Position numbers and translations under genes: made by a program. From NCBI RefSeq assembly GCF_963666525.1, contig NZ_OY762905.1, positions 372,001 to 436,000 on the forward strand: 64,000 bases of DNA, written 5' to 3'. The DNA comes from an uncultured Cohaesibacter sp. GTDB taxonomy: Bacteria; Pseudomonadota; Alphaproteobacteria; Rhizobiales; Cohaesibacteraceae. Shown here piece by piece: positions 24,432 to 28,617 of this stretch (the stretch's first letter is position 1; each line of letters opens with the position of its first letter). A model generated the notes under the pieces. That model searched no databases, had not been told where the DNA came from, and saw nothing but the letters and a program-made list of their open reading frames with translations.

Positions 24432-25832
24432 TCAGCCTTCAAGACTCCATGTCGTCTCGAATGCACCGGTTTCCTTGTTCTTGCTGTCCTTGAGGACAAC
24501 ACCCATGGCGGACAATTGATCCCGCAACTCGTCGGACTTGGCGAAGTCCTTGTTGTTGCGCGCGACAAGCCGTTCATCAACAAGCGCCTGAATGGCCGCC
24601 TCGTCAACTTCACCAGCCCCAGCCGGGCGCCAGTCGGCCCAGGCTTTCGGATCCTGAGCCAATACCCCGATCAGCTGCTGCAGCGATGCCTTGAGTGCCG
24701 CCGCTGCCTGCCTGTCACCCTGCGCCGCCTTGCCACGCAAGCCGTGCAGCTCGGCAATGGCTTTCGGTGTGTTGAGATCATCCGCCAGAGCCGCCACAAC
24801 CGCAGCATCCGGCTCGGAGGCCTCGACGTCGGCCGTCAGCGCATACCACTGATCAAGCATCCGCTTTGCTTCCTTCACGCCATCGGCCGTCCAGTTGAAC
24901 GGTTTGGTATAATGCGTGGTCAGTAGCGCAAGCCGAATGGCTTCGCCCGGATATTTGTCGATGAGATCATGCACGGTGGTGAAGTTGCCAAGAGACTTGG
25001 ACATCTTCTCGCCCTCGACCTGTACAAAGCCATTGTGCATCCAGACCTTGGCCATCGCCTCGTTGCCATGGGCGCAGCGGGACTGGGCAATCTCGTTTTC
25101 GTGGTGCGGAAAGGTGAGATCGATGCCACCGCCGTGGATGTCGAAGACCTCGCCCAGATGCTTCTCGCTCATGGCCGAACATTCGATATGCCAGCCCGGA
25201 CGCCCCTCGCCCCACGGGCTCGGCCAGCGCGGTTCACCTTCCTTTGAAGGCTTCCACAGCACGAAATCCATCGGGTTGCGCTTATAGGGCGCGACCTCGA
25301 CACGGGCACCGGCGATCATGTCGTCCACAGAACGACCGGACAACTGACCATACTCGGCCATGCTGTCCACCGCGAACAGCACATGGCCTTCGGCAGCATA
25401 GGCGTGCCCCTTTTCGATCAGGGTTCCGATCATCCGCAGCATGTCCTCGATATGCTCGGTCGCCCGCGGCTCGATGGTCGGGCGCATGGCCCCGAGCGCA
25501 TCCATATCGGCATGATAAAGCGCTGTGGTCTCGTCGGTGAGTTCGCGAATGGAAATGCCACGTTCAGCCGCCCGGGCATTGATCTTGTCGTCCACGTCGG
25601 TGATGTTGCGCACATAGGTTACGTGCTCGGCACCATAGACATGGCGCAGAAGCCGGAACAGCATGTCAAAGACAACAACCGGACGGGCATTGCCGATGTG
25701 GGCTGTGTCATAGACCGTCGGCCCGCAGACATACATGCGAACATTGTCGGGATCGAGGGGCTCAAAAGCCTCTTTCCGTTTGGTGAGCGTATTATACAGC
25801 ATCAACTGAATCTGTTCAGCATGTCCGGTCAT
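24432..25832 (-). CDS. cysS: Cysteinyl-tRNA synthetase
   Basis: Class I synthetase charging tRNA-Cys. The 466-residue protein has the zinc and substrate Cys36 in YVCGPTVYD, the HIGN signature at 45-48, the zinc pair region WHIECSAM, and KMSKS in the C-terminal half ([11 protein letters not shown]). The start at 25832 is chosen because the sequence upstream (34 codons) is not conserved and Cys-rich by chance. It has its own terminator. A 940-base gene-free region lies upstream. Confidence 0.96.
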
Positions 25833-26299
25833 TGACCCATTCCCAATTCTACTGCCGCCTGAGGCGACCAACCAAAACAAAACACCAGGCAGCCTTTCGG
25901 CAGAAAGGCCGCAAACCGTCGCACAACCGCACATTCGCCGTTGGCCGGAAATCGTTTCATGTTTTCAAGGGATGAGCGAAACGGCTCCAGCCAGCAAAGG
26001 TGCTAGTGGATAATAATCAAACCAATAATGCAGCAGTTGGTAGGACGATCCGTTTTCATGCCGCCACAATGGCCAAATTGCCCTGCCACGTCAACTGCTC
26101 ATTTGCCGAATTGCCGCGAAATTCAGAGCGACTTTCCGACACAACCCGCAAACCAGCCCCGGCCTCCTGCGTCAGTTTTCCCACCCGCCAGATCAATGCC
26201 AGAGAAAGACAGGAGAAATGCCGGGAAACAGTCATTCATGAACATGAATTCAAGATGAACACCCACCTCAGCATTCATTCACGTCCCGCGCCGTAGCAT

Positions 26300-26471
26300 G
26301 ACCTTACAAAACAGACCCCCCGCAACGAGCCGGTCAACAGACCGCCTCCTGCAAGAGGCGGGCTCTAAAGGGATACGGCAAAGAACCCATCCCAAGGCTT
26401 TATGCCTTAACCAGTCGCACCCAATCTTTGCCGCATGGAAGCTCCTGACATCCAATGTCGGGAGCTTTTCC
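26300..26471 (+). ncRNA. Candidate structured small RNA with three domains and a terminator
   Basis: Three consecutive elements fold without gaps by eye. First, a three-way junction: 26327-26331 (GAGCC) with 26361-26365 (GGCTC), enclosing GGTC/GACC (26332-26335 with 26340-26343) and GCCTC/GAGGC (26344-26348 with 26355-26359). Second, a perfect 9-base-pair stem CGGCAAAGA/TCTTTGCCG (26376-26384 with 26425-26433) containing AAGGC/GCCTT (26394-26398 with 26404-26408). Third, a 13-pair terminator-like hairpin at 26439-26467 with one G-U, followed by TTCCATTTTC. The 5' end is a guess. It does not fit 6S, SRP, tmRNA, RNase P or the riboswitch classes I know. Confidence 0.5.
26439..26471 (+). terminator. 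Intrinsic terminator closing the candidate RNA
   Basis: AAGCTCC at 26439-26445 and GACAT at 26447-26451 pair with ATGTC at 26455-26459 and GGAGCTT at 26461-26467, leaving a 3-base loop and a single G-U pair. The T run after it is short and broken. Confidence 0.65.
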
Positions 26472-26773
26472 ATTTTCAGGTCAGGTGCAAGCTCCTTTTG
26501 TGCAATCAAAGCGCATCCAAGCGTGGCTCCACTCTTGTCAAATCTACCCAACACCAATTGCCAATTTGGAGAAATTTCAAAATTTCGCCGGAAAGAGCTT
26601 TTATGACGTGTGAAAATACTTCACTCTGGGCTGACAATCGGTATAGTGCGAGGCCAAACCCTCCGGCATGAGGAGCCGTTCCCTGCCGCGAGTTCGCGAT
26701 CATTTACGCTTGGGCTGACCATTCATGGCGTCAGGATTTTAGGCACCTGGCTTATATAAACTGGCAAAAGAAA

Positions 26774-27070
26774 ATGAATATACAAAAACTAGAACAAAAC
26801 TCCGAGGAAGCCGCAGGCTTTCTGAAACTCCTGGCATCCGGCCCCCGCCTGCTCATCCTTTGTCAGCTTATTGAAGGCGAGCAGAATGTCGGCACGCTGG
26901 CCGAAAAGACCGGCCTGCGCATGACCACGGTTTCCCAGCACATGGCCCTGATGCGTGCCCAGAGCATCGTTTCCACGCGCCGCGATGGCACGACGATCTA
27001 CTATTCCCTCGCCAGCCCTGTGGTTGAAGAAGTGCTAGCAGTGTTGCACAAGAGCTTCTGCGGAGCCTGA
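26774..27070 (+). CDS. ArsR-family regulator of the BigR/SqrR/YgaV persulfide-sensor type
   Basis: A 98-residue winged-helix repressor with GLRMTTVSQHMALMRAQSIV as its DNA-reading part (residues 47-66). It has two cysteines only at Cys30 (LLILCQLIEGE) and Cys96 (HKSFCGA), 66 residues apart. This is the spacing and local sequence of the cysteine pair that forms a polysulfide bridge in SqrR and BigR, and of YgaV. So a role in sensing reactive sulfur is likely. Unusually it is followed after only 14 bases by pabB, and no sulfide oxidation gene is in the window. Confidence 0.85.
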   Translation: MNIQKLEQNSEEAAGFLKLLASGPRLLILCQLIEGEQNVGTLAEKTGLRMTTVSQHMALMRAQSIVSTRRDGTTIYYSLASPVVEEVLAVLHKSFCGA

Positions 27071-27084
27071 TCCCAAGAGGCACC

Positions 27085-28617
27085 ATGGTCGCACGTTCCA
27101 GCGCAAAAGCTCCTGCACCGCCCGTCCCTGCACCACTGGTCCATGACGTGCCTTTCACAGATCCTGCGATCCTGCTTGACGCCTTAAAAAGCCAGCCTTT
27201 TGTGGCTTTTCTGGATAGCGCAGCCCCAACCCCGCATCTGGGGCGCCATTCCTTCCTGACCTTTGCGCCGTTTGCCCTGTTCAGCGCCCGGGGCGGCCGC
27301 GCCTTCTGGAACGGGGAAGCCCTTCCCGAAGCTCCTTTCATTGCCCTTGAAAAGAAACGCGCCCAGTTCGCCATGGCCTCGGCCGGGAGCGATCTGCCGC
27401 CTTTTCAGGGTGGAGCCCTTGGCTATTTCTCCTATGAGGCAGGACGCCTTCTGGAAAAGCTGCCGCTGACCTCCCGCGAGGACCCGGACGCCTGGGACAT
27501 CCTGCTGCCGTTCTACGACCTCGTGCTCGCTGTCGACCATTTCCCGGCAAGTGGCTCGATGCCGCGTGCTCGTGTCTTCTCCTCCGGCTGGCCGCATCAG
27601 GGAGCAGACAGGGAGCACCATGCCCGCGAGCGGCTCACATGGTTCTGCGAGCAACTGCAGGAGGCGAGCCGCTTGGAAGCTGAGAGATCGGTGCGCCCAT
27701 CATCCCCCAGTCCCATCCGGGGCTGGCGCTCCGATGTCAGCCGCACCGCGTTCGAAGGCTCCATCGAGAAGACCCGCCATTATATCCGGCAGGGTGACAT
27801 CTTTCAGGCCAACATAACCCAGCGCTTTTCGGCTTCCGTACCTCAAGCCGACCGGTCAAGCCCGCTTGCCTATTATCACGCCATGCGCAAGCACAACGCG
27901 GCCCCCTTTGCCGCCTATCTTGATTGTGGTGATCATGTCATTGCCTCGAGTTCACCGGAACGCTTCATCATCCTGAGCGAGGCCGGAGAGGTCGAGACCC
28001 GCCCGATCAAGGGCACCGCACCACGCGATCTTACCGATCCAGCGAGAGACAAAGCCCTTGCCGATGCCCTTGCCGCGAGCGAGAAGGATCGGGCCGAGAA
28101 TGTCATGATCACCGACCTGATGCGCAACGATCTCTCCCGTGTCTGCGAACCAGGCAGCATTCAGGTGCCCCAGTTGTGCGGGCTGGAAAGCTATGCGCGG
28201 GTGCACCATCTGGTCTCGACAGTCACCGGCAGGCTGCAAGAGCCGAACGGCGCCGTCGCTCTGCTCAGCGCCACCCTGCCCGGCGGTTCCATCACCGGTG
28301 CACCGAAGATCCGCGCCATGGAGATCATCACCGAGCTGGAAGACCTGCCTCGCGGCGTCTATTGTGGAGCCATAGGCTACATCGGCTTTGACGGTACCAT
28401 GGACTCCAACATCGCCATCCGCACCGTGACCTTCAGGGATGGCATGGCCCATTTCAACGTCGGCGGCGGCATCACCATCCTCTCCGACCCGGCGGAGGAA
28501 TATGAGGAGTGTCTGCACAAGGCCTCAGCCCTGTTCCGCGCCTTTGGCACCACGCTCGAAGCGGAGCGACAGACGCTGGAACAAGGCCCGCAGCCCGACG
28601 AGGAACAGCAACCATGA
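27085..28617 (+). CDS. pabB: Aminodeoxychorismate synthase component I
   Basis: Uses chorismate and ammonia from PabA to make 4-amino-4-deoxychorismate, the first step to p-aminobenzoate and folate. The 510-residue protein has GDIFQANITQRF (237-248), the PIKGT motif at 307-311 whose Lys309 distinguishes PabB from TrpE, MITDLMRNDLSR, and SITGAPKIRAMEII in the C-terminal half. The N-terminal half is more variable. Its stop overlaps the pabA start (ATGA). It starts 14 bases after the ArsR gene with AGAGG upstream. Confidence 0.93.
   Translation: MVARSSAKAPAPPVPAPLVHDVPFTDPAILLDALKSQPFVAFLDSAAPTPHLGRHSFLTFAPFALFSARGGRAFWNGEALPEAPFIALEKKRAQFAMASAGSDLPPFQGGALGYFSYEAGRLLEKLPLTSREDPDAWDILLPFYDLVLAVDHFPASGSMPRARVFSSGWPHQGADREHHARERLTWFCEQLQEASRLEAERSVRPSSPSPIRGWRSDVSRTAFEGSIEKTRHYIRQGDIFQANITQRFSASVPQADRSSPLAYYHAMRKHNAAPFAAYLDCGDHVIASSSPERFIILSEAGEVETRPIKGTAPRDLTDPARDKALADALAASEKDRAENVMITDLMRNDLSRVCEPGSIQVPQLCGLESYARVHHLVSTVTGRLQEPNGAVALLSATLPGGSITGAPKIRAMEIITELEDLPRGVYCGAIGYIGFDGTMDSNIAIRTVTFRDGMAHFNVGGGITILSDPAEEYEECLHKASALFRAFGTTLEAERQTLEQGPQPDEEQQP

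Follow-up and report, generated by a model that had tools for sequence, protein, structure and literature searches.

A conserved, structured RNA gene, well supported by genome comparison, was identified on the plus strand between cysS and arsR-pabB in a window of 64,000 nt, originating from the genome of an uncultured Cohaesibacter species that consists of a single contig of 5.18 Mb. The element constitutes a new RNA family and probably belongs to an established type, the regulatory small RNAs (sRNAs). With somewhat better than even confidence, it is interpreted as a free-standing sRNA of approximately 165 nt that is activated by a FeuP-like regulator and acts on mRNAs through its C-rich loops. 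The gene is present as a single copy, as deduced from a search of the own genome with a 201-base query of the RNA region. It is flanked by the following genes:

24432 to approximately 25832, minus strand: cysS, the divergent neighbour (TIGR00435, 490.3 bits; cut-off 340)
26774-27070, plus strand: gene encoding an ArsR-family regulator (arsR; Pfam HTH_5, NCBIfam HTH_metalloreg above cut-off)
27085-28617: pabB/trpE-type gene, located beyond arsR

The distance between the cysS start (~25832) and arsR (26774) amounts to 941 bases, in agreement with the gene-free region noted in the initial annotation of this DNA. The order cysS, RNA, arsR and pabB-type gene is the same in all 14 loci carrying the RNA. 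The conserved promoter of the RNA gene (26245-26299) was missed initially, the annotated interval ending short of it. The following features were assigned to the RNA gene and its downstream region:

26245-26281, plus strand: promoter box TGAA-N7-TGAA-N7-CTCA-N7-TTCA, whose four half-sites are spaced by 11 bp; putative binding site for a regulator of the FeuP/PhoP type
26294-26299, plus strand: -10 element TAGCAT; its TA lies exactly 12 nt past the box in all 14 copies, ten of which have T as the sixth base
approximately 26306-26472, plus strand: predicted transcript of about 165 nt, its start deduced from the -10 element and its end from the terminator
26306-26375, plus strand: variable 5' domain including a three-way junction (26327-26365), as seen in the fold; not conserved
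26376-26433, plus strand: conserved core with P1 (26376-26384/26425-26433) and P2 (approximately 26394-26398/26404-26408), based on covariation and model match
26385-26394, plus strand: first C-rich loop, ACCCATCCCA (alignment A1)
26409-26424, plus strand: second C-rich loop, AACCAGTCGCACCCAA (alignment A1)
26436-26476, plus strand: terminator hairpin with TTTTCCATTTT tail; covarying helix with invariant outer GG/CC
26620-26647, plus strand: separate promoter-like site before arsR, TTCACT-N16-TATAGT, found by scan and, in a looser version, at 13 of the 18 loci

For positions 26298-26471 of the plus strand, a minimum-energy fold of -64.1 kcal/mol was obtained, far below the dinucleotide-shuffled controls (-42.9 +/- 4.0 kcal/mol; z = -5.26), none of 200 shuffles being as good. 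Three consecutive structures had been predicted, and all of them appear in this fold at the places assigned to them, that is, the three-way junction (26327-26365), the 9-bp stem enclosing an inner hairpin (26376-26384/26425-26433) and the terminator-like hairpin, which comprises 15 pairs (26437-26469) including the 13 pairs originally described. The reverse strand folds about equally low (z = -5.72). Since z-values are below -5 on both strands, energy alone cannot assign the strand and comparison is needed; accordingly, fold energy was dropped as proof of the strand.

Alignment A1 comprises 14 rows, and the structure evaluated in it consists of 30 named pairs corresponding to 411 cells, of which 97.8% were paired. 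The comparison of relatives upstream of cysS, which had been proposed as a check, revealed changes on both sides in 15 of the 30 pairs (36 cells). The covariation score was 0.324 versus 0.177 +/- 0.013 for shuffles, none of 500 shuffles being as high, and controls with slid partners scored 0.06-0.10 with one to four pairs changed on both sides; because the aligned sequences are related to one another and one of them supplied the structure, these controls are not to be read as probabilities. P1, P2 and the terminator were also obtained independently by RNAalifold. Among the pair cells of the plus strand, 31 G-U were counted versus 3 A-C, and 402 of 411 cells are able to pair on this strand versus 374 on the minus strand. 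Both the G-U excess and the larger number of pairing cells indicate that the RNA is read from the plus strand. The explanation that no RNA gene exists at this site, the structures being chance inverted repeats or a DNA-level element, is in line with the equally low energy of the opposite strand; however, it is very improbable given that covariation exceeds the shuffled and slid controls, that the G-U excess is strand-specific and that a conserved promoter and a terminator are present in order.

The full conserved core including the terminator extends over positions 26376-26472 and consists of the 9-bp P1, the inner hairpin P2 and the terminator. In A1, P1 pairs in all cells, the terminator in 97% and P2 in 95% of them; the exceptions in P2 are L013, in which an insertion is accompanied by another inner hairpin, and L014, whose hairpin is formed in a shifted register. 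In single-sequence folds, P1 was part of the minimum-energy structure in 11 of 14 copies and was absent from L009, L011 and L015. Hardly any variation was seen in A1 within the unpaired stretches ACCCATCCCA and AACCAGTCGCACCCA, most deviation being observed in L013 and L014, and the conserved C-rich sequences represent the two loops of the second domain, inside P1. The 5' domain, on the other hand, varies between species, both in its length and in the way it folds. The three-way junction was found in only one of 14 single folds, namely the window's own, and was therefore rejected as a functional part; the two closest relatives form other, long hairpins in this domain. In the same two relatives, CCTCCT, a supposed anti-ribosome-site motif, is replaced by CCGCCA and CTATCT, and it is thus not a conserved motif of this kind. 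The initial claim of a new structured RNA consequently stands as regards covariation and the missing Rfam match, and was abandoned as regards the three-way junction and CCTCCT, neither of which is conserved.

Screening against Rfam 15 yielded no match at the gathering score, neither in the whole 64,000-nt window nor in 13 relative loci, and at E <= 10 only two weak matches were recorded within 25800-26800, both outside the element. This agrees with the initial view of the element as a new structured RNA. The 6S RNA (RF00013) was also considered and rejected as an identity of the element: no RF00013 match was obtained here, and the 6S RNA of this genome is encoded elsewhere (C1:1545800-1545960; 55.9 bits, cut-off 46.4).

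In order to describe the distribution of the RNA, genomes of relatives were searched with model R1, with which the window's own core (26376-26433) scores 124.5 bits. The core was detected in 14 of 18 Cohaesibacter genomes. At E <= 1, matches were obtained in 14 of 61 genomes, all belonging to the genus, and in none of the 43 others. In a sample of the order searched at E <= 0.1, 13 of 297 genomes matched, nine within and four outside the genus. R1 scores were computed for 58 (61-genome set) or 12 (order sample) candidates per genome, out of the several hundred picked up at first look, so that diverged copies may be missed in these counts. Of the four alignments from outside the genus (L166-L169), three cover little more than the terminator; the fourth, L166 (E 2.1e-5), combines the terminator with a short stretch at an apparent gene end and was judged to be a chance match. 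Two weak matches in genome G016 (24.0 and 22.1 bits), L164 and L165, were likewise excluded from the copy count; L164 overlaps that genome's true copy, on the opposite strand. Results of blastn with a 301-base query are in line with this distribution: strong matches (E 1.6e-100 to 8.8e-11) were obtained in 13 of the 17 remaining Cohaesibacter genomes, and the best match outside the genus spans 27 bases (E 5e-4).

In four genomes of the genus (G001, G002, G009 and G013), no R1 match was obtained even at E <= 10, and cysS and arsR are retained at the locus without the RNA (L170-L173). The RNA was lost from these genomes or was never present in them. They are placed close together in a CysS tree, the best version of which requires two changes; a single change may also account for the absence. 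Regarding members of the same family outside the genus, an ArsR relative (65%) with no RNA nearby was found in G018, and no ArsR match at E 1e-10 was found in G019.

Two side observations were made in the course of these comparisons. On the minus strand, ahead of cysS (26003-26059), lies the coding sequence of a conserved leader peptide, MKTDRPTNCCIIGLIIIH, with Cys codons in tandem. Its form MKT...CCIIG.III(H/R) occurs in 16 of 18 loci of the genus (all except L008 and L015), including the four without the RNA, and a terminator-like hairpin was found at 25912-25889. Together, peptide and hairpin suggest cysteine-responsive attenuation of cysS. Moreover, among the 80 of 117 matches listed for the pattern CATCCC-N-ACCAGTCGCACC, many derive from unrelated bacteria (L036, L044, L064, L085 and others), several Pseudomonas rows sharing the same 28-base span; in these bacteria the pattern is perhaps a conserved coding stretch.

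The architecture of the promoter of the RNA gene is well supported by sequence comparison. All 14 copies are preceded by TGAA-N7-TGAA-N7-(C/A)TCA-N7-TTCA, followed after 12 nt by the TA of the -10 element; the third half-site is CTCA in ten copies and ATCA in four. Together with the covarying terminator hairpin, box and -10 element in 14 of 14 copies represent the features of a free-standing gene at the sequence level. At 13 of the 18 loci, among them all four without the RNA, a further promoter-like site precedes arsR, downstream of the terminator; two of the 13 have a short 13-nt spacer, and the pattern was not found in the remaining five of the 18 (L010-L013, L015). This separate site argues for a free-standing RNA. 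It weakens the alternative of a cis-acting leader (riboswitch or attenuator), in which the P1/P2 core would sense a ligand or protein and the terminator would set read-through into arsR-pabB. Such a leader would agree with the arrangement of RNA, terminator and arsR one after another on a single strand at all 14 loci, and with the highly conserved, aptamer-like loops; however, approximately 300 bases separate the terminator from arsR, and the four genomes mentioned above retain cysS and arsR in the absence of the RNA. A leader is considered improbable.

The box is shared with other genes. Within the own genome, the exact box (third half-site YTCA) was found at three places, namely the RNA gene (C1:398245), C1:3930397 and C1:5153799, and 12 sites were recorded when up to two mismatches were allowed; the reversed control gave none in either case. 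A looser pattern was detected in 18 of 21 genomes, versus 0 of 21 for the reversed control. Each of the two further exact boxes (L200 and L201) is again followed by TA after 12 nt, and the same spacing was observed at L238.

At L200 (C1:3930397), which in the own genome lies between glyQ and a YitT-family gene, the box is followed by another conserved noncoding stretch, approximately 250-330 bases long and observed in ten genomes of the genus (L200, L204, L206, L211, L213, L214, L220, L224, L225, L227). It features a 13-pair long-range stem near its end with several compensatory changes, and no Rfam match was obtained for it in the five loci scanned. At L201 (C1:5153799), the box precedes a gene for a small protein that looks exported, contains two Cys and carries a tail rich in Ser and Gly, and the own copy of which has no Pfam or NCBIfam match; box and such a protein also occur together at L210, L222, L223, L226 and L229. 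Box-like sites were furthermore observed in other genera of the order (L215, L217, L218; also L216), with TA 12 nt on in three of the four examined. The next frames look like those of exported proteins, one showing curlin-like repeats by eye.

The regulator of the RNA is likely FeuP-like, as suggested by the box and by an operon of the own genome. In Sinorhizobium meliloti, TTCA-N7-TTCA (Motif 3) precedes 12 genes, five of them known to be FeuP-dependent, and was proposed as the FeuP site in the passages of PMC3616915 dealing with this motif. The 11-bp repeat of the RNA box matches this candidate site: upstream of the RNA, TTCA-N7-TTCA is present exactly as its inverted copy TGAA-N7-TGAA, and the -10-proximal pair (C/A)TCA-N7-TTCA deviates from the S. 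meliloti motif by a single letter in each of the 14 copies. Among seven matches to PhoP at E <= 1e-30 in the own genome, the best one, encoded at C1:4435337-4435978 (44% to E. coli PhoP, E 4.1e-55; next 39%), belongs to a feuNPQ-like operon encoding a small PepSY-like protein, the regulator and a PhoQ-like kinase. The small protein is exported-looking (PepSY 23.8 bits, cut-off 24.0), the best NCBIfam models of the regulator are PmrA (225 bits) and then PhoP (214.7), both under cut-off, and that of the kinase is PhoQ, also under cut-off; likeness of the regulator to FeuP was judged by comparison with E. coli PhoP and with these NCBIfam models. Upstream of the operon, TTCA-N7-TTCA is followed after 12 nt by TAAATT.

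An alternative, regarded as rather unlikely, assigns the box to a different regulator of the OmpR family and leaves the rest of the interpretation unchanged. Seven PhoP matches offer a choice of regulators, and the four-half-site box extends a short published motif that is itself a candidate FeuP site in the relevant passages of PMC3616915. However, when 1.5 kb ahead of each of the seven regulators was searched, TTCA-N7-TTCA turned up before the best PhoP match alone, and there with the 12-nt spacing. ChvI was considered in particular and rejected, since the consensus forms quoted in PMC9731502 do not fit the box.

Based on these findings, the following mechanism is proposed for the preferred reading, a FeuP-like-activated sRNA. 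A membrane kinase would sense envelope stress and signal to a response regulator of the PhoP/FeuP type, which would bind the 11-bp-spaced half-sites at 26245-26281 and activate the promoter. The resulting RNA would consist of the variable 5' domain, the core with its 9-bp stem presenting the loops ACCCAUCCCA and AACCAGUCGCACCCA, and the terminator. The C-rich loops would most likely pair with G-rich ribosome-binding regions of mRNAs, probably those of envelope genes and probably with the help of Hfq. With a regulated promoter of its own, a terminator and C-rich loops that are exposed, the gene fits a trans-acting antisense sRNA.

Seeds of both loops were searched in 21 genomes (13 of the genus). 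The complement of the second loop, with at most one mismatch, gave 94 matches, nine of which are the RNA gene itself, and the reversed pattern, the composition of which differs from that of the true one, gave 52. One seed word recurs in five genomes; in the own genome and two relatives it is located in different contexts, inside frames. Among eight sites inspected (six non-self sites in the own genome and two in relatives, most of them within open frames), no convincing ribosome-site target was found; since the search was short and strict, this result says little about the existence of targets. The result bears on a further explanation, according to which the invariant loops hold a specific protein for sequestration or as a scaffold, with no pairing to mRNAs and with the promoter reading unchanged. 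Both loops are more constant across 14 species than pairing with drifting mRNA sites usually requires, and the lack of a convincing mRNA match points in the same direction, although the strictness of the seed search gives it little weight. Exposed C-rich loops are usual in antisense sRNAs, which counts against protein binding, and this explanation is regarded as unlikely.

On a broader level, the alphaproteobacterial FeuP/FeuQ (PhoP/PhoQ-like) envelope system may possess an RNA arm, in which the strongest four-half-site promoters of Cohaesibacter would drive two unrelated, undescribed RNAs (the RNA described here and the L200-type stretch) as well as tiny exported proteins, in a layout that would have arisen independently of MgrR of E. 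coli. This proposal is tentative, and its chance is put at slightly less than even. The RNA described here would by itself provide a possible RNA output for FeuP/FeuQ, a system important for host interaction in rhizobia, and the sharing of the box makes the prediction directly testable. The genus Cohaesibacter would gain a structured RNA family.

A literature search found no publication naming both Cohaesibacter and sRNA. Regarding known systems, the Alpha-r sRNA families of the Rhizobiales, members of the same order, feature C-rich unpaired stretches (e.g., CCUCC seeds) and a terminator. The Cohaesibacter element differs from them in having no Rfam match, at the gathering score or at E <= 10. 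No sequence relation of the element to MgrR of E. coli was found either, as indicated by the missing Rfam match, and the box TGAA/TTCA-N7 is not known as an E. coli PhoP box. Transcription of MgrR depends on PhoP/PhoQ, the two-component system that most resembles the one envisaged for the element, and together with Hfq this sRNA acts on envelope-related mRNAs such as eptB, according to passages of PMC6239178. ChvR of Caulobacter crescentus, an alphaproteobacterial sRNA activated by the envelope two-component system ChvGI, differs in its regulator and in the box quoted in PMC9731502 (TTGC-N3-GCAA); its sequence was compared by Rfam scans alone. For FeuP, sRNA and meliloti, the promoter-mapping study PMC3616915 was the only publication found. 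The FeuP regulon described in its passages shares the 11-bp repeat, and Motif 3 also precedes feuN, cotranscribed with feuPQ, just as the operon in the own genome is headed by the motif; in contrast, the Cohaesibacter box consists of four half-sites in inverted pairs and precedes an RNA gene, whereas these S. meliloti passages name protein genes.
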